DNA of 64,000 nt from an uncultured Collinsella sp. (GCA_947642445.1 CANRSF010000014.1:1-64000), one strand, 5' to 3'; positions 15,740 through 26,047 are shown, numbered from the stretch's first letter. Notes: generated from the letters alone by a model not told the origin. Numbers and translations are program-made.

Positions 15740-17980
15740 GTGGCAAAGAAGAAGACGAAGAACCAGCCAAAGAAAAAGCAGGTCAACGCCGAGAACGTCA
15801 TCGGCCTGCACTCCGAGGTCACCGACCAGCCGATCACGCAGACGCTCGAGGTCAACTACATGCCCTACGCCATGAGCGTCAACGTCTCGCGTGCATTCCC
15901 CGAGATCGACGGCTTTAAGCCCTCGCACCGCAAGCTGCTCTACACCATGTACAAGATGGGTCTGCTCAAGGGCGAGCGCCAGAAGAGCGCCAACATCGTG
16001 GGTCAGACCATGAAGCTCAACCCGCACGGCGATGCCGCGATCTACGAGACGATGGTGCGCCTGGCGACGGGCAACGAAGCGCTGCTTGCCCCCTTCGTGG
16101 AGTCGAAGGGCAACTTTGGCAAGTACTATTCGGGCGACCTGAGCTACGCCGCCTCGCGTTATACCGAGGCCAAGCTCTCCCCCATCAGTGCCGAGATCTT
16201 CAAGGACATCGACAAGGACCCGGTCGACTTCGTCGACAGCTACGACGGCGCCATGAAGGAGCCGCGTCTGCTGCCCACCACGTTCCCCAACATCCTCGTC
16301 TCGGCCAACAAGGGCATCGGCGTCGCCATGGCTTCTGACATCTGCGGTTTCAACCTCAACGAGGTCTGCACCGCCACGATGCACTACCTCAAGGATCCCG
16401 GCTGCGACCTGCTCGAGTACATGCCCATGCCCGACTTCTCGACCGGCGGCGAGATTATCTACCGCCGCGAGGAGATGGAGAAGATCATCGAGACCGGCCT
16501 TGGCAGCTTCCAGATTCGCTCCCGCTGGCGCTGGATTCCCGAAGAGCGCATCATCGAGGTGTACGAGATTCCCTACACCACTAAGACCGATGTCATCATC
16601 GAGCGCATCGTCAAGCTCTCCAAGGAGGGCAAGGTCAAGGAAATCGCAGACATCCGCGATGAAACCGACCTTTCGGGTCTGCGTATCGCCATCGACCTTA
16701 AGCGCGGTGTCGACCCCGACAAGCTCATGGCCAAGCTCTATCGCTCGACCACGCTGCAGGATTCGTTCTCGTGCAACTTCAACGTGCTCGTCGACGGCTA
16801 TCCCCGTGTTATGGGCGTGCGCCAGATCCTGCACGAATGGGTCAAGTGGCGTATTGAGTCCACGCGTCGCCGCATTAACTTTGACCTGGGAAAAAAGTCC
16901 GAGCGCCTGCACCTGCTGCACGGCCTCGAGGCTATTCTGCTCGACATCGACAAGGCCATCGCCATCATCCGCGGCACCAAGCTTGAGGCCGAAGTCGTGC
17001 CCAACCTTATGCGCGGCTTCGACATCGACGAGACCCAGGCCGAGTTTGTTGCCGAGCTCAAGCTCCGCAACATCAACGAGGAATACATCCTCAACCGCAC
17101 CAAAGACATCGCTAAGCTTGAGGGCGAGATTGCCGAGCTTGAGGAGATCCTCTCCAGCGAGGAGAACATCAAGAAAGTCATCAGCGACGAGCTGGCCGCG
17201 GTCAACAAAAAGTACGTGATGCCGCGCCGCACGGGCAGGATCGAGCCCCATGAGGTTATCGAGGTAAGCTTGGAGCCCGAGGTCGAGGAGTACCCGGTCA
17301 CCATCATGCTCTCGCGCGATGGCTACCTTAAGAAGATGACGGACCGCGTGCTCAAGAAGGCGACCACGCTCAAGTACAAGGACGGCGACAAGCCCTTTAT
17401 CGAGTTCCCGTCCTCCAACACGCACGAGCTGCTGGTCTTTACCAATAAGAGCCAGGTGTACAAGTGCAAGGTCGCGGCGTTTGAGGACACCAAGTCGGCC
17501 CAGCTGGGCTCGTACCTGCCGACCGATCTTGAGATGGAACCCGACGAGAGCGTCATCTGGGTCATCGACCCCGAGGACTACAAGGCCGACGTGCTGTTTG
17601 TCTTTGAAAACGGCCGCGTGGCGCGCGTCGCACTTGCCGGATACGTCACCAAGACCAACCGCAAGCGCCTCAAGAACGCCATCTACGGTGGCAGCAAGCT
17701 GCTGTATGCCCAGGTGCTCAAGGAAGATCGCGACATCGCGTTGGTCTCGAGCGACTATCGTTTGATGAACTTCAACACGTCGCTGCTCAAGACCAAGACG
17801 ACCACCAACACGCAGGGCGTCCAGGCCTTTACGACCAAGAAGGGCCGCTCGGTCACCACCGTCGGCACGACCGAGGAGATTCTTGGCGCCGGCGTCTCGG
17901 CCGAAAAGTTCACCGCACAGAGCCTCCCCTCAGCCGGTGCCCTCATGAAGGAAAACGACATGCCGAGTCTGTTTGACTAG
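15740..17980 (+). CDS. Type II topoisomerase subunit A (ParC/GyrA-like)
   Basis: 746 residues after a GAGGAAATC leader; the N-terminus is very basic (AKKKTKNQPKKKQ). The breakage-reunion domain shows FPEIDGFKPSHRKLLYTMYK, NPHGDAAIYETMVRLA and the catalytic Tyr in SYAASRYTEAKLSP (about residue 145). A long coiled coil runs about 430-490 (KDIAKLEGEIAELEEILSSE). The C-terminal beta-pinwheel repeats follow from 520, without a clear GyrA-box, so a topoisomerase IV-like decatenase is more likely than a gyrase. The fluoroquinolone-contact Ser of the GDS motif is Ala (GDAA). Operon with subunit B. The pair looks like core genome. Confidence 0.9.
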   Translation: MAKKKTKNQPKKKQVNAENVIGLHSEVTDQPITQTLEVNYMPYAMSVNVSRAFPEIDGFKPSHRKLLYTMYKMGLLKGERQKSANIVGQTMKLNPHGDAAIYETMVRLATGNEALLAPFVESKGNFGKYYSGDLSYAASRYTEAKLSPISAEIFKDIDKDPVDFVDSYDGAMKEPRLLPTTFPNILVSANKGIGVAMASDICGFNLNEVCTATMHYLKDPGCDLLEYMPMPDFSTGGEIIYRREEMEKIIETGLGSFQIRSRWRWIPEERIIEVYEIPYTTKTDVIIERIVKLSKEGKVKEIADIRDETDLSGLRIAIDLKRGVDPDKLMAKLYRSTTLQDSFSCNFNVLVDGYPRVMGVRQILHEWVKWRIESTRRRINFDLGKKSERLHLLHGLEAILLDIDKAIAIIRGTKLEAEVVPNLMRGFDIDETQAEFVAELKLRNINEEYILNRTKDIAKLEGEIAELEEILSSEENIKKVISDELAAVNKKYVMPRRTGRIEPHEVIEVSLEPEVEEYPVTIMLSRDGYLKKMTDRVLKKATTLKYKDGDKPFIEFPSSNTHELLVFTNKSQVYKCKVAAFEDTKSAQLGSYLPTDLEMEPDESVIWVIDPEDYKADVLFVFENGRVARVALAGYVTKTNRKRLKNAIYGGSKLLYAQVLKEDRDIALVSSDYRLMNFNTSLLKTKTTTNTQGVQAFTTKKGRSVTTVGTTEEILGAGVSAEKFTAQSLPSAGALMKENDMPSLFD

Positions 17981-19785: not shown

Positions 19786-20346
19786 TCAAGATGAACTGCA
19801 GGAATCATGGCGAGTCGTAACCGCTCGCATACCCCCTTCGGAATAGGCGCTGAGCAGCTCCTGAGCGTGGGCAAACTCGGGCCCTCGTCTCCAACCGAGC
19901 AGGCGGTTGACCGCGAGATTTCCCTGGACGTTGTGGACGAAGAGCAGATAGGCGTCCTCGCGCGAAAGCCCAGTCTCCTCCATGATCGAGGGAACCATCT
20001 GCTCGGCGCCGCGCTCGACGACGCGCTGTGCCACCCGGGCGTACGCGTCGTCATCCGAGTAGAGCAGATAATAGTCATCGTTTGCCGGCGGACGCTGGCA
20101 GAGGGCGCCCGCCTCCGTTCCCTCGAGCGGCGGCACCGCCGCCAAGGCCTCGTCGATAAGCGCGTCGAGCAGGGCGAACTTGTCCTCGTAGTGCAGATAG
20201 AACGTGCCACGGTTGATATCGGCGCGGCGGCAGATATCCGCTACCGTCATCTTCGCGAAGCCGACCTCGGCCAGCAGCGCGAAGAACGCCTCCCGTATGA
20301 CCGAGAGTGTATAGCGTCGGCGACGATCGATCTTCCCCGCTTCCAT
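19786..20346 (-). CDS. TetR-family regulator (copy 1), divergent from the Sir2-like operon
   Basis: 186 residues from the ATG at 20346 (EAGKIDRRRRYTLSVIREAF) with GGAGGGG just upstream; the ORF track start adds nine residues. The TetR HTH is FAKMTVADICRRADINRGTFYLHYEDK. The C-terminal ligand domain is helical (DDAYARVAQRVVERGAEQMV, LFVHNVQGNLAVNRLLG). It is transcribed away from three Sir2-like genes across a ~145 bp region containing the near-palindrome TATAGACACGTGTTTATA, so it probably represses them. A paralogue of about 80% identity is at 23079 in the same arrangement. Ligand unknown. Confidence 0.88.
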   Translation of the reverse strand: MEAGKIDRRRRYTLSVIREAFFALLAEVGFAKMTVADICRRADINRGTFYLHYEDKFALLDALIDEALAAVPPLEGTEAGALCQRPPANDDYYLLYSDDDAYARVAQRVVERGAEQMVPSIMEETGLSREDAYLLFVHNVQGNLAVNRLLGWRRGPEFAHAQELLSAYSEGGMRAVTTRHDSCSSS

Positions 20347-20450
20347 TACCCCTCCAATTGCAACGCTCGACAATGCCCGGCAAACGCTCGTTTATCGACA
20401 GCAGGCCGAAGCTGTTCATTGCTCTTAAGCAAATCGACATGGATACTTTT

Positions 20451-20468
20451 TATAGACACGTGTTTATA
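20451..20468. promoter_or_regulatory. Candidate TetR operator and Sir2 operon promoter
   Basis: TATAGACACGTGTTTATA is palindromic with one mismatch and overlaps a consensus TATAAT -10 (20465-20470) ahead of the Sir2 operon. The matching intergenic region of the second cassette keeps TTTATAGACAC and TGTTT (23743-23765). Confidence 0.5.
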
Positions 20469-20489
20469 ATAGCTGAAAGAAGGTATCCA

Positions 20490-21455
20490 GTGACCCTGTA
20501 CGAGCAGCTCGTTATCGAGCTCACCAACCAATCGTTTTCCCTTCAGGCCGCCTACCGCAGCGGCGGCACGCCCTATGAGCTGAGTGACCGCGAGCCCGAG
20601 CCCTACGACCAGCAAATCGAGGACTTCGCCCGCATGATCGAGGAAGCCGATTGCGTGCTGGCGGGCGGGGCCTCCGGGCTCTCCGCGGCGGGCGGCGGCG
20701 ACTTCTACTACGAGGACAACGCGACCTATCGCAAGCATTTCGGCAAATTCGCCGAGCGTTACGGTTTCAAGGGCGCTTTCGAGGGGTCGTTCTACCGCTG
20801 GCCCACCGCCGAGGCGCGCTGGGGATACCTCGCCACCTTCCTCGACACCACGCTCAACGCCCCGCTGCGCAAGCCCTACAGGGACCTCGACGCCATTCTC
20901 GCCGAGAAGGATTTCTTCGTGCTCACCACCAACCAGGACACGCAGTTTGTGAAGCTCTATCCCTGGGAGAAAGTGGCAGAGATCCAAGGCGACCACCGCT
21001 TCTTTCAGTGCTCCCGCTGTTGCACCGACGCGGTGTGGGATGCGGTCGAGCCGGTCTCCAACATGGTAGAGGCCATGGGAGACGGCCTTGAGGTTCCGAC
21101 AGAGCTCGTGCCGCGCTGCCCGCACTGCGGGGCAGAGGCGTTCCCCTGGGTTCGCGGCTACGGCAACTTCCTGCAGGGCGAACTCTACGAGGAGCAGTAC
21201 CGCAAGGTGTCCGACTGGCTCGACGCGCACGCACGGCAGAGGATCCTCTTCCTCGAGCTGGGTGTGGGCCGCATGACGCCCGCGTTTATCCAGGAGCCGT
21301 TCTGGGCCCTCACGGCGCAGTTACCGCAGGCCAGCTACATCGCCGTAAACAACAAGACGCAGTTTCTCCCCCGCGCGATCGAGGATCGGGGGCTCGCCGT
21401 TCGCGCCGACATCGCCGACGTGCTTGCCGACGTGCGCAAGACGCTGGGGAGGTAG
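20490..21455 (+). CDS. Sir2-like NAD-binding protein 1 of tandem trio
   Basis: About 321 residues from GTG at 20490 (TLYEQLVIELTNQSF), with GAAAGAAGG upstream; the ORF-track start at 20307 reads through the promoter. Sir2 fold marks: NAD loop DCVLAGGASGLSAAGGGDF (canonical GAGxSxxSGIPxFR), VLTTNQDTQF (canonical TQNID), a zinc ribbon C-x2-CC ... CPHCG (about 175-215) and ILFLELGVGRMTPAF near the C-terminus. The catalytic HG His of deacylases is not evident (IQGDHRFFQCSRC instead). This divergent Sir2 class occurs in anaerobic Firmicutes/Coriobacteria; substrate unknown. The next gene starts 3 bp after the stop. Confidence 0.8.
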   Translation: MTLYEQLVIELTNQSFSLQAAYRSGGTPYELSDREPEPYDQQIEDFARMIEEADCVLAGGASGLSAAGGGDFYYEDNATYRKHFGKFAERYGFKGAFEGSFYRWPTAEARWGYLATFLDTTLNAPLRKPYRDLDAILAEKDFFVLTTNQDTQFVKLYPWEKVAEIQGDHRFFQCSRCCTDAVWDAVEPVSNMVEAMGDGLEVPTELVPRCPHCGAEAFPWVRGYGNFLQGELYEEQYRKVSDWLDAHARQRILFLELGVGRMTPAFIQEPFWALTAQLPQASYIAVNNKTQFLPRAIEDRGLAVRADIADVLADVRKTLGR

Positions 21456-21458
21456 CGC

Positions 21459-22159
21459 ATGGAGACGGCGAAAGCAGTTCGCATAGGCAGGGCGCTAGCC
21501 GAAGCGGATCTTGTCATCATCGGCGCTAGCAACGGACTGGACATGGCAGAGGGGCTCAACCTTTTCTGCGCCGATGCTCATTTCCAAGAGGCGTACGGGG
21601 ACCTCGCCCAGGCAGACGGCATCGGCTGCATACTGCAGGGGCTTGCCTCCCCGGATGCCAGCGTGCGACGCCGATGGGCCGAGCGGTTTCATCAAAAGGA
21701 ATATCTCGAATATGAGCCCAGCCCGCTCATGAACGAGCTGCGGCGTCTTACAGAGCACGCTGACACCTTCGTGATCACGTGCAATATCGACGGGCACTTC
21801 GTACGCGCAGGGTTCAACGAGAACCGCGTGCTCGAGACGGAGGGGGGGGCATACGCACGTCGATCGACGAGCGGCGTCTCGCCCATCCAGACGCCCTCGC
21901 CACGGCCCAGCTCGAGGAGCTCGAGCGCCTTGTGCAAGCCCATCGCAACGGCAGGGTCGCCATCCTCGAACTTGGCGTGGGACTGCGCAACGGCATCATA
22001 AAGCACATGCTCGCCCAGATCGCGAACGTCTGCGAGCACGCCACCTACATCGTGTTCAACTACAGCCAGGCCATGGCGCCCGACGCCTCGTGCGAGACGA
22101 TTCTCGTTGACGGCGATATGACCCCGGCTTTCGAGGAGATTGCCCAATGCCGTCTCTAG
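21459..22159 (+). pseudogene. Sir2-like protein 2, frameshifted at a G8 tract (possibly phase-variable)
   Basis: The ATG follows GGGGAGG. Frame 1 encodes about 127 residues of a shortened Sir2-like protein: ADLVIIGASNGLDMAEG (NAD loop), TFVITCNIDGHFVRAGFNEN (TQNID-like). It then enters a run of eight G (21842-21849). The continuation lies in another frame (ORF 21779-22159): TSIDERRLAHPDALATAQLE, RVAILELGVGLRNGIIKHML, YIVFNYSQAMAP. Nine or six G would join them into about 233 residues. It lacks the zinc-ribbon insert of its neighbours. It overlaps the next gene by 13 bp. Either a recent pseudogene or an OFF state of a slippage switch. Confidence 0.7.
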
Positions 22160-22995
22160 AGAGGGAAGCGTATAGGCTTCGAAGCCTTATCGACGATGCC
22201 GACGCCATCATCGTCGGCATCGGCTCGGGCATGTCAAGCGCCGCCGGGTTCAACCATTACAACCGCGCAGGCATGGCGCGCGCCGGAATGACGGACTGGC
22301 AGCAAGCCTTTGGCTTCAAGAGCCTTTTCGACGGCTTTTACCACCTCTACCCCAGCCTCGAGCAGCAATGGGCCTACTACGCGCGATACATCGACTTCAT
22401 GCTGCGCGAGCTGGCCTCGCAGCCCTATCTCGACCTACGGTCCCTCATCGGCCATAAGGACTACTTCATCCTGAGCACCAATGTAGACACCCAAGTCGAG
22501 AAGACGTTTCCCACCGAGAGGATCTGCAACTATCAGGGAAGCTTCGCGCACCTTCAGTGCAAGCAGCCATGCTGCGACGAGCTCTTCGATGCGAGCCCCT
22601 ACGTCGAGCGCATGCTCGCGGGCATGGCGGGGTTCGAGGTCCGCAGCGAGGATGTCCCCCGATGCCCGCATTGCGGCTGGCAGCTTGTGCCGTGGGTGCG
22701 CGACGACACGTTTCTGCAAGGTGCGGCATGGCGCGAGAGCCTCGGACGATACGAGCGCTTCGTGCGCGAGCGCAGCGATCGCCGCGTGCTGTTGCTGGAG
22801 CTCGGCGTGGGCGAGATGACCCCCGGCATCATCACGCTCCCGTTCTGGAGCATGACCGCGAAGCTGCCGGATGCGCACCTGCTGAGCGTAAACATCTCGG
22901 GCGGCTCGGCTCCGCTGCAGCTTGGAAGCAAGGCAGGGGCGATCCAGGCCGATTTGGGCGCCCTGCTCTCGGTGGCGCGGGCAGGTGGCGAGTAA
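22147..22995 (+). CDS. Sir2-like NAD-binding protein 3 of tandem trio
   Basis: 282 residues. NAD loop ADAIIVGIGSGMSSAAGF, then FNHYNRAGMARAGMTDWQQA, GFYHLYPSLEQQWAYYARYI, the NID motif FILSTNVDTQVEK, zinc cysteines in LQCKQPCCDE ... CPHCGWQ (about 140-180), and LLLELGVGEMTPGIITLPFW. As in gene 1, the position of the deacylase His is occupied by YQGSFAHLQC. The ATG lies inside the end of gene 2, so the three are one transcript. A C-terminal piece of a close paralogue survives at 25728-26047 beyond the radical SAM insertion. Enzymatic role (deacylation, NAD hydrolysis or ADP-ribose chemistry) not decidable by eye. Confidence 0.82.
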   Translation: MPSLEREAYRLRSLIDDADAIIVGIGSGMSSAAGFNHYNRAGMARAGMTDWQQAFGFKSLFDGFYHLYPSLEQQWAYYARYIDFMLRELASQPYLDLRSLIGHKDYFILSTNVDTQVEKTFPTERICNYQGSFAHLQCKQPCCDELFDASPYVERMLAGMAGFEVRSEDVPRCPHCGWQLVPWVRDDTFLQGAAWRESLGRYERFVRERSDRRVLLLELGVGEMTPGIITLPFWSMTAKLPDAHLLSVNISGGSAPLQLGSKAGAIQADLGALLSVARAGGE

Positions 22996-23078: not shown

Positions 23079-23639
23079 TCACGATGGGTTATCGGAATCG
23101 CGAAGAGCGGATACCGCCAGTAAGCCCCCTTCGGAATAGGCGTTGAGCAGCTCCTGGGCATGGGCGAACTCGGGGCCTCGTCTCCAGCCGAGCAGGCGGT
23201 TGACGGCCAGATTGCCCTGGACGTTGTGGACGAAGAGCAGGAAAGCGTCTTCGCGTGAAAGCCCCGTTTTCTCCATGACCCAGGGAACCATCTGCTCCGC
23301 TCCGCGTTCTATGACGCGCTGGGCTACGCGAGCGTATGCGTCGCTGTCCGAATAAAGCAGGCGATAATCGTCGTCTGCCGGCGGACGCTGGCAAAGCGTT
23401 GCCGATTCAACCCCCTCAAGCGGGGGAGCCGCTGCCAATGCCTCGTCGATAAGCGCATCGAGCAGCGCGTACTTATCCTCGTAATGCAGATAGAACGTTC
23501 CCCGGTTGATCTCGGCGCGGCGGCAGATGTCCGCCACCGTCATCTTCGCGAAGCCGACCTCGGCCGGCAGCGCGAAGAACGCCTCCTGTATGACCGAGAG
23601 GGCGTAGCGCCGCCGGCGGTCGATCTTGGTTTCTCCCAT
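23079..23639 (-). CDS. TetR-family regulator (copy 2)
   Basis: 186 residues from the ATG at 23639 (GETKIDRRRRYALSVIQEAF); the ORF-track start at 23780 reads through the promoter. The HTH FAKMTVADICRRAEINRGTF is identical to copy 1 apart from one residue, and overall identity to 19786 is about 80%. It diverges from the stump of a Sir2-like gene (23783) exactly as copy 1 diverges from its operon, so the whole cassette was duplicated. The intergenic region keeps TTTATAGACAC...TGTTT. The regulator is intact while its cassette is gutted, so it may now control the radical SAM pair. Confidence 0.88.
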   Translation of the reverse strand: MGETKIDRRRRYALSVIQEAFFALPAEVGFAKMTVADICRRAEINRGTFYLHYEDKYALLDALIDEALAAAPPLEGVESATLCQRPPADDDYRLLYSDSDAYARVAQRVIERGAEQMVPWVMEKTGLSREDAFLLFVHNVQGNLAVNRLLGWRRGPEFAHAQELLNAYSEGGLLAVSALRDSDNPS

Positions 23640-23782
23640 CGCCTCTCCAATCTGAGTCGTTTGACAATGTCCAGTAGCTGTTCGTTTATCGACAGGTGCA
23701 CGCGTTTGTTCATTGCCCCTGCGAAAATCAACAAGGATACTGTTTATAGACACCTGTTTTTTATAGCTGAAAGGGAGCACGG

Positions 23783-23983
23783 ATGACCCTGTGCGAGAAG
23801 CTCGGCATCGGGCTTGTCAGCCGATCGTTTTCCCATCGGGCCGTCTATCGAAACGGCGGCACGTCATACGATTTGAGCGATTGCGAGCCTGCTGCTTGCA
23901 AGCAAGATATCGAGGCTTTTGCCCGCAAGGTGGGGGAGGCTGATTGCGTGTTTACGGGAGAGGCAGGTAGGCAGGCGTTATGA
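23783..23983 (+). pseudogene. Sir2-like gene 1 stump (copy 2), cut by radical SAM insertion
   Basis: 66 codons. After a GAAAGGGAG site it matches the first ~57 residues of the Sir2-like gene at 20490 (TLCEKLGIGLVSRSFSHRAV, NGGTSYDLSDCEPAA, EADCVFTGEAG). It breaks off inside the NAD-binding loop and ends with RQAL-stop. The stop TGA overlaps the start of the first radical SAM gene (ATGAGC), so the stump now acts as a translated leader coupling the host promoter to the inserted pair. Confidence 0.75.
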
Positions 23984-24669
23984 GCATCTGCATCAAAAAT
24001 CAGATTCAGAATATGAATATCGTCATCGGCTGCACGGTGGGGTGTCCATATTGCTATGCCCGTAACAATGTGAAACGTTGGCATATGATTGACGACTTCG
24101 CTGATCCTGCGTTCTTCCCGAGCAAGCTCAAGATGATGGAAAAGAAACGGCCGCAGAACTTTCTCCTTACCGGCATGAGCGATCTCTCCGGGTGGAAGCT
24201 GGAATGGCGAGACGAGGTATTTGCAAAGATCCATGAGAATCCACAGCATCAGTTCCTGTTCCTGACCAAGAGACCCGATTTGCTGGATTTAGATACCGAC
24301 CTGGAAAACGCATGGTTCGGCGTTACGGTGACGAGGAAAGCGGAGCTGTGGCGTATCGACGCCCTTCGGAAAAACGTCAAAGCAAATCACTTCTTCGTTA
24401 CTTTTGAGCCGCTATTCGACGATCCCGGTACGGTCGACCTTTCCGGAATCAACTGGATCGTCGTCGGTACCATGACCGGGGCGCAGAGCAGGAAGGTTCA
24501 TACGGAACCGGAGTGGGCATGGTCTTTGACGGACCAGGCGCACGCGCTTGGCATTCCAATGTTTATGAAGGAAGACCTCGTCTCTGTCATAGGGGACGAA
24601 AACATGATTCAGGAATTGCCGGAAGAATTCGAAAGAGTGCTGGAGGTGCAGAGAACATGGCGGAAGTGA
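23980..24669 (+). CDS. Radical SAM mobile pair protein A
   Basis: 229 residues. The radical SAM cysteine cluster is in IGCTVGCPYCYARNNVKRW (CxxxCxxC, about residues 16-25), near the N-terminus. It is followed by a compact partial-barrel pattern with FLLTGMSDLSGWKLEWRDE, HQFLFLTKRPDLLD, WFGVTVTRKAELWRID, HFFVTFEPLFDDPG and WIVVGTMTGAQSRK. This layout fits what I remember as 'radical SAM mobile pair protein A', always next to a protein B. The ATG overlaps the stop of the Sir2 stump. Lower GC and different codon use than the flanks indicate transfer. Substrate unknown; SAM cleavage and an Fe4S4 cluster follow from the motif. Confidence 0.8.
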   Translation: MSICIKNQIQNMNIVIGCTVGCPYCYARNNVKRWHMIDDFADPAFFPSKLKMMEKKRPQNFLLTGMSDLSGWKLEWRDEVFAKIHENPQHQFLFLTKRPDLLDLDTDLENAWFGVTVTRKAELWRIDALRKNVKANHFFVTFEPLFDDPGTVDLSGINWIVVGTMTGAQSRKVHTEPEWAWSLTDQAHALGIPMFMKEDLVSVIGDENMIQELPEEFERVLEVQRTWRK

Positions 24670-25565
24670 TCGATGGAATCCTCATCAATGAGGTGGAAGC
24701 AAAGAACATCATGACCAAGTCCAGCCTGCCGGTAGGCGGCTACTCGGTCAATCCCTATGTAGGCTGCACGCATGCCTGCAAGTATTGCTATGCCTCCTTT
24801 ATGAAGCGCTTTACCGGACACAAGGAGGAATGGGGCACCTTTCTTGATGTGAAGCATTGGCCGGAAATCAAGAATCCGAAGAAATACGCTGGACAGCGGG
24901 TGGTTATCGGTTCTGTGACGGATGGCTACAATCCACAGGAGGAGCGATTCGGGAATACCAGGAAACTCCTGGAGCAGCTGATTGGCAGCGATGCAGATAT
25001 TCTGATCTGCACAAAGTCCGATCTTGTGGTACGGGATATCGATCTGCTGAAGAGGCTTGGACGAGTGACCGTTTCATGGTCGATCAACACGCTGGATGAG
25101 AACTTCAAGAACGATATGGACTCCGCGTCGAGCATCGAGCGTCGTATCGCTGCTATGAAGCAGGTGTATGACGAAGGTATCCGTACGGTCTGCTTCGTGT
25201 CCCCGGTATTTCCCGGCATCACGGATTTTGAGATGATTTTTGAGCGAGTAAAAGATCGGTGCGATTTGTTTTGGCTCGAAAATCTCAATCTTCGGGGTGG
25301 TTTCAAAAAAGCGATCCTGGATTATATCGCCGAGAAACATCCCGATCTCGTACCGCTTTACGATGAGATCTATAACAAGCGCAACCGTAGCTATTTTGAA
25401 GCGCTTGAAGTAAAAGCCGAGGAAATGGCCAAGAAGTACGATTGCCCCTTTGTGGACAACGAAATGCCTTATGGCAGAGTCCCCCAGGGGCATCCGGTGA
25501 TCGTGGACTACTTCTATCACGAGGAAGTCCGAGGGTCGGATAATAGCGGAAAAAGAAATCGTTAA
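24657..25565 (+). CDS. Radical SAM mobile pair protein B
   Basis: 302 residues from the ATG at 24657, overlapping protein A by 13 bp. The radical SAM motif is NPYVGCTHACKYCYASFMKR (CxxxCxxC, about residue 33-40), then RVVIGSVTDGYNPQEERFGN, a conserved layout of the spore photoproduct lyase-like/Rv2578c-like branch, DILICTKSDLVVRDIDLL, VTVSWSINTLDENF, CFVSPVFPGITDFE and FWLENLNLRGGFKKAI. The C-terminal part ends in a basic tail. Overlap implies coupled translation and a working complex with A. The pair sits between the two ends of a disrupted Sir2 cassette. Function of the pair is not established as far as I know. Confidence 0.82.
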   Translation: MAEVIDGILINEVEAKNIMTKSSLPVGGYSVNPYVGCTHACKYCYASFMKRFTGHKEEWGTFLDVKHWPEIKNPKKYAGQRVVIGSVTDGYNPQEERFGNTRKLLEQLIGSDADILICTKSDLVVRDIDLLKRLGRVTVSWSINTLDENFKNDMDSASSIERRIAAMKQVYDEGIRTVCFVSPVFPGITDFEMIFERVKDRCDLFWLENLNLRGGFKKAILDYIAEKHPDLVPLYDEIYNKRNRSYFEALEVKAEEMAKKYDCPFVDNEMPYGRVPQGHPVIVDYFYHEEVRGSDNSGKRNR

Positions 25566-25727
25566 ACGGAAACCGACGACGATTCGCTCGAGCGATTAGC
25601 GTCCACGCGTGGCTTCTGCCGATTGGCGCAACGGGCGACGGATTAAGGGATCGCTCGGGCGGATGATCCCGCTGCAGTACAGGCGGTCGCTCAATTTAGC
25701 GGCATGAGCGTTTTCGCACGGAAAACC
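25566..25727. other. Right-hand junction of the radical SAM insertion
   Basis: About 160 bp that match neither the radical SAM genes nor the Sir2 cassette. They contain no ORF of note; GATTCGCTCGAGCGAT gives a small dyad at about 25579. Sir2 homology resumes near 25728. If the element has a recognition end it should be here; I see no terminal inverted repeat shared with the left junction near 23970. Confidence 0.4.
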
Positions 25728-26047
25728 AGTATCTTGTACCGTGGGTGCGCGACGGCACGTTTCTGCAGGGTGCGACATGGCGCGAGAGCCTCGGACGATA
25801 CGAGCGCTTCGCGCACGAGCGCGGAGCTGGCCGCGTGCTGCTGCTGGAGCTTGGCGTGGGCGAGATGACCCCCGGCATCATCACGCTCCCGTTCTGGAGC
25901 ATGGCCGCAAAGCTGCCGGATGCGCATCTGTTGAGCGTAAACATCTCGGGCGACTCAGCCCCCTTGCAGCTCGGAAGCAAGGCGGAGGCAATCCAGGCCG
26001 ATTTGGGCGCACTGCTCTCGGCGGCGCGGGTGGGCGACGGTGCTTAA
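25728..26047 (+). pseudogene. Sir2-like gene 3 C-terminal remnant (copy 2)
   Basis: From LVPWVRDGTFLQGATWRESL to the stop, this matches residues ~180-282 of the Sir2-like gene at 22147 at about 90% identity (LLLELGVGEMTPGIITLPFW, LLSVNISGDSAPLQLGSKAE). The NAD loop and NID motif are missing. It marks the right end of the duplicated cassette, so everything from residue ~57 of gene 1 to residue ~180 of gene 3 was lost or replaced by the radical SAM pair. Confidence 0.75.

Follow-up and report, generated by a model that had tools for sequence, protein, structure and literature searches.

The question raised by this locus, which lies in a window (the whole stretch of DNA analysed) of 64,000 nucleotides from an uncultured Collinsella sp., is why a single operon encodes three different Sir2-like proteins and what they could do together with NAD. 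The nearest relatives that bear a name are Collinsella sp. and C. aerofaciens. An earlier note had given the operon as 19786-22995, a range that does hold the three genes but also takes in a TetR gene and intergenic space. It had also described the trio as adjacent and overlapping. The genes are indeed adjacent, of Sir2 fold and all on the plus strand, but A and B do not overlap, since the last base of the A stop codon is 21455 and the first base of B is 21459; the sole overlap in the trio is one of 13 bp between B and C. The motifs quoted for the three proteins (GGASG, GASNG, GIGSG, TTNQD, TCNID and STNVD) are present in the sequence. The features of the locus are as follows.

19786-20346, minus strand: TetR-family regulator gene, divergent and upstream of the trio (PF00440, E 6e-12), with its start codon at 20346
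20452-20467, no strand: candidate TetR operator, ATAGACACGTGTTTAT, an inverted repeat (7/8 positions) in the TetR-A intergenic region
20490-22995, plus strand: the trio A-B-C, three adjacent Sir2-fold genes
20490-21455, plus strand: subunit A, class M sirtuin, 321 aa, with TTNQD, EIQG, WVR, GVGRMTP and a Cys4 ribbon
21459-22159, plus strand: subunit B, SirTM-fold paralogue, in two frames, placed by the B profile and the model of an intact orthologue
22147-22995, plus strand: subunit C, class M sirtuin, 282 aa, with STNVD, NYQG, WVR, GVGEMTP and a Cys4 ribbon

The start codon of A is most likely the GTG at 20490. A gyrase/topoisomerase A-like gene (window 15740-17980) precedes the operon site. 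Two relatives (L044 and L047) have nothing but operon fragments at this position, which makes the site polymorphic for the operon.

We first consider A and C. In a phmmer search of solved structures, the best PDB match of both was 5a3a (E 1.9e-37 for A and 1.7e-35 for C), which is SpySirTM, a class M sirtuin from Streptococcus pyogenes with ADP-ribosylating activity (PMC4518038), and a sequence match of this kind lies far beyond chance. The second-ranked structure for both was 8rsn, at an E-value of about 1e-18. The AlphaFold2 model of A (pLDDT 86) superposes on 5a3a with a TM-score of 0.87, normalised by target (E 1.6e-25 in the structure search), and C was placed in the SirTM fold by sequence alone. 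PF02146, the Pfam SIR2 model, matched neither A nor C in the Pfam scan, while NCBIfam deacylase models match both weakly; the sirtuin kinship of the two is accordingly drawn from phmmer, the weak NCBIfam matches and structure, and not from Pfam SIR2.

Class M sirtuins carry a QG where the HG catalytic motif stands in other sirtuins, require N118, Q137 and R192 for activity and have a GVGx[NT]TP loop as a further sequence feature (PMC4518038). In our alignments Q137 and G138 are kept in 25/25 A and 17/17 C sequences, as are N118 and D120, and T234-P235 is kept in every A and C sequence having the position. R192 is found in 24/25 A sequences, the exception showing an Arg to Lys change, and in 15/16 of C. 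Nearly all A and C sequences combine a pyrophosphate loop of the GVGx[NT]TP type with N118 and R192. The HG motif is thus absent from A and C, as first noted, but this absence is not peculiar to the operon: a Gln at position 137 is the normal state of class M, so that the missing His represents no operon-specific loss. The suggestion that the trio does not perform classical deacetylation is supported, given that class M enzymes, with the same QG for HG, have no deacylase activity (PMC4518038). Classical deacylation by A and C was rejected in view of the QG and the missing PF02146 match; a canonical SIR2 gene is encoded separately in this genome, on contig C18. As judged from these residues, A and C would be catalytically competent SirTM-type subunits. 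Pairwise comparison within Collinsella gives A a dN/dS of about 0.08-0.19 and C one of 0.14-0.21.

The full class M catalytic set of A and C, and the fact that class M enzymes are protein ADP-ribosyltransferases (PMC4518038), would agree with ordinary SirTM mono-ADP-ribosylation. A and C would then be two transferases, each with its own targets, while B would serve as an inactive decoy or persist as a remnant through linkage alone. We hold this to be unlikely, mainly on account of B. In the window the B frame is broken at the following feature.

21842-21849, plus strand: run of 8 G, break of the B frame, with 2 bases more than in six relatives

The N-terminal frame runs off at this G run, and B continues in a different frame as far as 22159. 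Relatives have 4-6 G at this place, and in the six with 2 bases fewer B is open over 232 aa. The frameshift seen in this assembly may be either a mutation or an assembly error, and with B broken here the complex proposed below may be non-functional in this strain. An intact 232-aa orthologue is predicted (pLDDT 81.5) to adopt the SirTM fold without the zinc ribbon, and the best structural match of the model is again 5a3a (E 5.6e-12). The earlier count of two Cys4 ribbons stands for A and C, which have four ribbon Cys each; Collinsella B has none, but 21/24 B orthologues elsewhere keep the ribbon.

By the alignment, the truly unusual member of the trio is B, with a Glu where class M has Gln. 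All 24 B sequences have Glu at position 137 (EG for QG) and keep N118, none of the 24 keeps R192, and in each of the 23 having position 234 the residue is Asn, T234-P235 being absent. Five further B copies on Bacilli plasmids display the same E-G and GxGxxN pattern. With Gln137 changed to Glu, Arg192 lost and the TP loop altered, B is probably incapable of SirTM chemistry alone. Nevertheless, B pairs within Collinsella that differ by a dS of more than 0.2 give a dN/dS of about 0.15-0.27, which indicates purifying selection rather than simple decay. Both this selection and the invariant residues that B has of its own (E137, N118 and N234) argue against a decoy or a remnant.

The association of B with A was followed in loci gathered by searches with C and then with the B profile, covering the taxa of the window at genus, family and class level, as well as Clostridia and plasmids. 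Among 39 B-bearing loci from Coriobacteriia, Clostridia and Bacilli plasmids, A adjoins B in 38, and the sole B locus without an adjacent A (L081) has a broken C. Gene order is shuffled, with A-B-C, A-C-B, B-C-A and C-B-A all found, and about eight loci consist of A-B without C. Widening the search in Clostridia at family level brought in no further locus. Since the majority of loci came from searches with B or C, cases of A lacking B may be under-sampled. The A, B and C labels came from profiles seeded on few loci, and a FastTree tree of 95 sequences afterwards recovered them as clades: A, B, C and the macrodomain-linked class M sirtuins each form a monophyletic clade, with local supports of 0.98, 0.997, 0.95 and 0.98 respectively. 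The earlier proposal that the distinct paralogues act together is thereby well supported by conservation, through the A-B adjacency, the three classes and the shuffled order. As to independent occurrence of the three genes, C is dispensable whereas A and B are apart at one locus only. A-B is the core and C an add-on. That B goes with A in distant taxa, and that the dispensable gene is C and not B, tells further against a plain transferase system with B as a passenger.

Within Collinsella, breaks affect any of the three genes: B in the window, A in L035 and C in L037 and L038, with only remnants left in L044 and L047. The operon is thus often broken or lost. Lactobacillus plasmids (L147, L148 and L149) carry A and a TetR gene together with a form of B that has a cupin domain fused at its C-terminus.

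We next looked at whether the A-B loci have the partners of known SirTM systems. A macrodomain profile search found no macrodomain at any A-B locus, while the same profile detected one at 10/10 single SirTM loci of the same family, used as a control. No Macro domain was found anywhere in this genome, and 12/31 other A-B genomes are likewise without one; sister Collinsella species, for their part, hold canonical SirTM and macrodomain pairs. GCV_H gave nothing above the cut-off in this genome and GcvH-L is not found beside the trio. GcvH-L was considered as a substrate here and rejected, the single weak GCV_H match of the genome being a biotin carboxyl carrier protein. That the known substrate is missing from the genome also weighs against the trio as a plain SirTM system. 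Being in the SirTM sequence class, A and C should work like SirTM, yet they stand outside the macrodomain-linked system.

A different set of neighbours was observed in more distant relatives. On Paenibacillus and Mesobacillus plasmids A and B are directly followed, in this order, by genes for an HD-domain protein, nicotinate phosphoribosyltransferase (NAPRT) and an isochorismatase-family (nicotinamidase-like) hydrolase. In L139, A and B precede a fused HD-nicotinamidase, then NAPRT (E 1e-195) and the NAD synthase NadE (E 6e-50), and in L040 and relatives the order is A, C, B and HD-nicotinamidase. The nicotinamidase half in L040, as read from its sequence, retains Asp, Lys and Cys, the residues expected of a nicotinamidase. 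The HD proteins form one family, 48-78% identical, which is also found near A-B in L135 (members at L145:3526-4104, L139:6967-8088, L040:7693-8805 and L135:4074-4697). This family is a candidate for the missing ADP-ribose-processing step. The Collinsella trio itself has no adjoining salvage genes, and the salvage link of the window is thus one by homology. Other neighbours were also noted. A DUF3786 protein, identified in L138 with homologues in L135 and L141, lies beside or near A-B in these three Clostridia and, by eye, close to a CooC-like ATPase in L138 and L141. A small TIGR04076-family protein, identified in L064, adjoins the trio in two distant genomes (L064:8363-8680 and L144:7606-7932).

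Together, the salvage linkage in distant relatives and the alteration of B point to an undescribed NAD-consuming complex. The reading we favour, and consider probable though well short of assured, is that the products of the operon form a class M sirtuin complex without a macrodomain, A-B(-C), which consumes NAD and in which B is an altered partner. According to this model, A and C would split NAD and hand the ADP-ribose to protein or water, while B would most likely gate or position A inside a hetero-oligomer. In Collinsella the divergent TetR would set transcription of the trio, and where salvage genes share the cluster, as in some Clostridia and Bacilli, their products would recycle the nicotinamide set free. 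The class M kinship, the residue patterns, the A-B linkage, the missing macrodomain and the salvage linkage of relatives are observations, whereas complex formation, the role of B and enzymatic activity are inferred.

A bolder form of the same idea, which we put forward tentatively and with limited expectation, is that A-B is a two-part enzyme, that the HD protein takes the place of the macrodomain and that salvage closes an NAD cycle of new design. The active site would then be shared between A and B or gated, such that a normal SirTM subunit works only with its Glu-bearing partner; the HD-domain protein of the cluster would remove or process ADP-ribose, with no macrodomain reversal, and nicotinamide would return to NAD via the co-encoded salvage enzymes.

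The same linkage to nicotinamidase, NAPRT and NadE, along with the changed active site of B, could also be expected of a non-catalytic sensor of NAD or nicotinamide that regulates salvage genes or enzymes. A pure sensor, however, would not need the class M catalytic residues, which in A are kept in 25/25 sequences apart from the one Arg to Lys change noted above. As the catalytic residues of A are intact, a sensor role is less likely, and we regard it as the least probable of the readings weighed here.

Regarding expression, the earlier note had spoken of a TetR-controlled operon. A gene with a TetR_N domain (PF00440) is indeed found divergently upstream of the trio, with a dN/dS of about 0.1 among relatives, and would control it. 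When seven upstream regions were aligned and compared by eye, the core of the candidate operator proved to be kept in the relatives and at a second TetR copy. A sigma-70 promoter scan gave nothing strong and nothing above chance. In many clostridial loci a divergent Rrf2 regulator stands in the place of TetR.

The second TetR copy belongs to a degraded second copy of the operon (window 23079-26035), consisting of TetR2, the start of A and the end of C, with the interior replaced.

23079-23780, minus strand: second TetR gene, 83% identical, part of the degraded second operon copy
23784-23983, plus strand: beginning of a second A gene, left as a remnant (36 bits against the A profile; in relatives its DNA and that of the first copy are about 80% identical)
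25733-26035, plus strand: 3'-terminal remnant of a second C gene, 87% identical

The stretch between the second-A and second-C remnants (window 23980-25565) encodes proteins A and B of the radical SAM mobile pair (TIGR04471 and TIGR04470). Another Collinsella (L034) shares the block at window 23440-25733 at 99.5% identity, and this suggests that the block moved recently, through recombination at the operon copies. Members of the same mobile pair are found close to A-B in two other Clostridia (L042:2743-3432 and L142:4402-5313). The radical SAM genes were considered as functional partners and set aside, as they are a known mobile pair near three loci only; given the identity of the block between the two strains, they are probably hitchhiking.

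A stress or defence role had also been thought conceivable. Here the trio would be an NAD-depleting NADase similar to SIR2-domain antiphage proteins, with B as a sensor or inhibitor. Such a role would suit the presence of the A-B unit on plasmids and its coming and going among Collinsella species, and there is an example of paired requirement in the FAM118A/B sirtuins, which process NAD only with both paralogues present (PMC12700824). However, PADLOC gave no match, the viral contigs held no relatives and the phage genomes no match covering 80% of the query, leaving phage defence unsupported. Furthermore, A and C belong to SirTM and not to SIR2_2, and the recurrent neighbours rebuild NAD and do not supply other effectors. 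We therefore judge a defence NADase improbable, and prefer the macrodomain-free NAD-consuming complex.

To our knowledge, the textbook PncA/PncB/NadE salvage pathway, the genes of which neighbour A-B in some Clostridia and Bacilli, has no sirtuin or HD-domain partner. The class M system used for comparison is SirTM with a Zn-macrodomain, GcvH-L and LplA2 (Rack et al. 2015, PMC4518038; Ariza et al. 2024, PMC11490716). The trio resembles it in the sequence and fold of A and C, the QG for HG, residues N118/D120/Q137/R192, the GVGx[NT]TP-type loop and the Cys4 ribbon. It differs in that the A-B locus and this genome are without macrodomain or GcvH-L, that each operon has two or three paralogues including a conserved partner with Glu for Gln, that A-B loci have TetR or Rrf2 regulators and are linked to NAD salvage, and that the tree separates A, B and C from the clade of macrodomain-linked SirTMs. 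In the extended SirTM operon (GcvH-L, LplA2, OYE and LLM), GcvH-L lies beside SirTM, whereas the trio is without it. Mfs1 (8rsn), a fungal macrodomain-SirTM fusion, has a SirTM half that matches A and C but carries its macrodomain fused to a single sirtuin, unlike A-B(-C). The literature search, which covered mainly freely available papers, returned papers on SirTM with a Zn-macrodomain and none on a macrodomain-free trio, on B or on the salvage linkage.

SirTMs as known so far are associated with macrodomain-linked reversible ADP-ribosylation, mostly in pathogens and with one known substrate, GcvH-L. The macrodomain-free branch, which is present in widespread gut bacteria and on plasmids of Lactobacillus, almost always comes with a conserved, altered sirtuin partner and in some cases with NAD salvage genes; such a paired branch would represent a second way to run SirTM chemistry, and it makes the question of targets for SirTMs without GcvH-L directly testable. 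The human FAM118B/FAM118A pair (PMC12700824), which likewise consists of two sirtuin paralogues, offers by analogy a model for how B could work. It belongs to the SIR2_2 subfamily, forms filaments and has an active-site His and Asn in both members, in all of which it is unlike A-B; it may thus be taken as a precedent for a two-paralogue requirement and not as a close relative. In that sense bacteria would have, in A-B, an equivalent of paired sirtuins like FAM118A/B.
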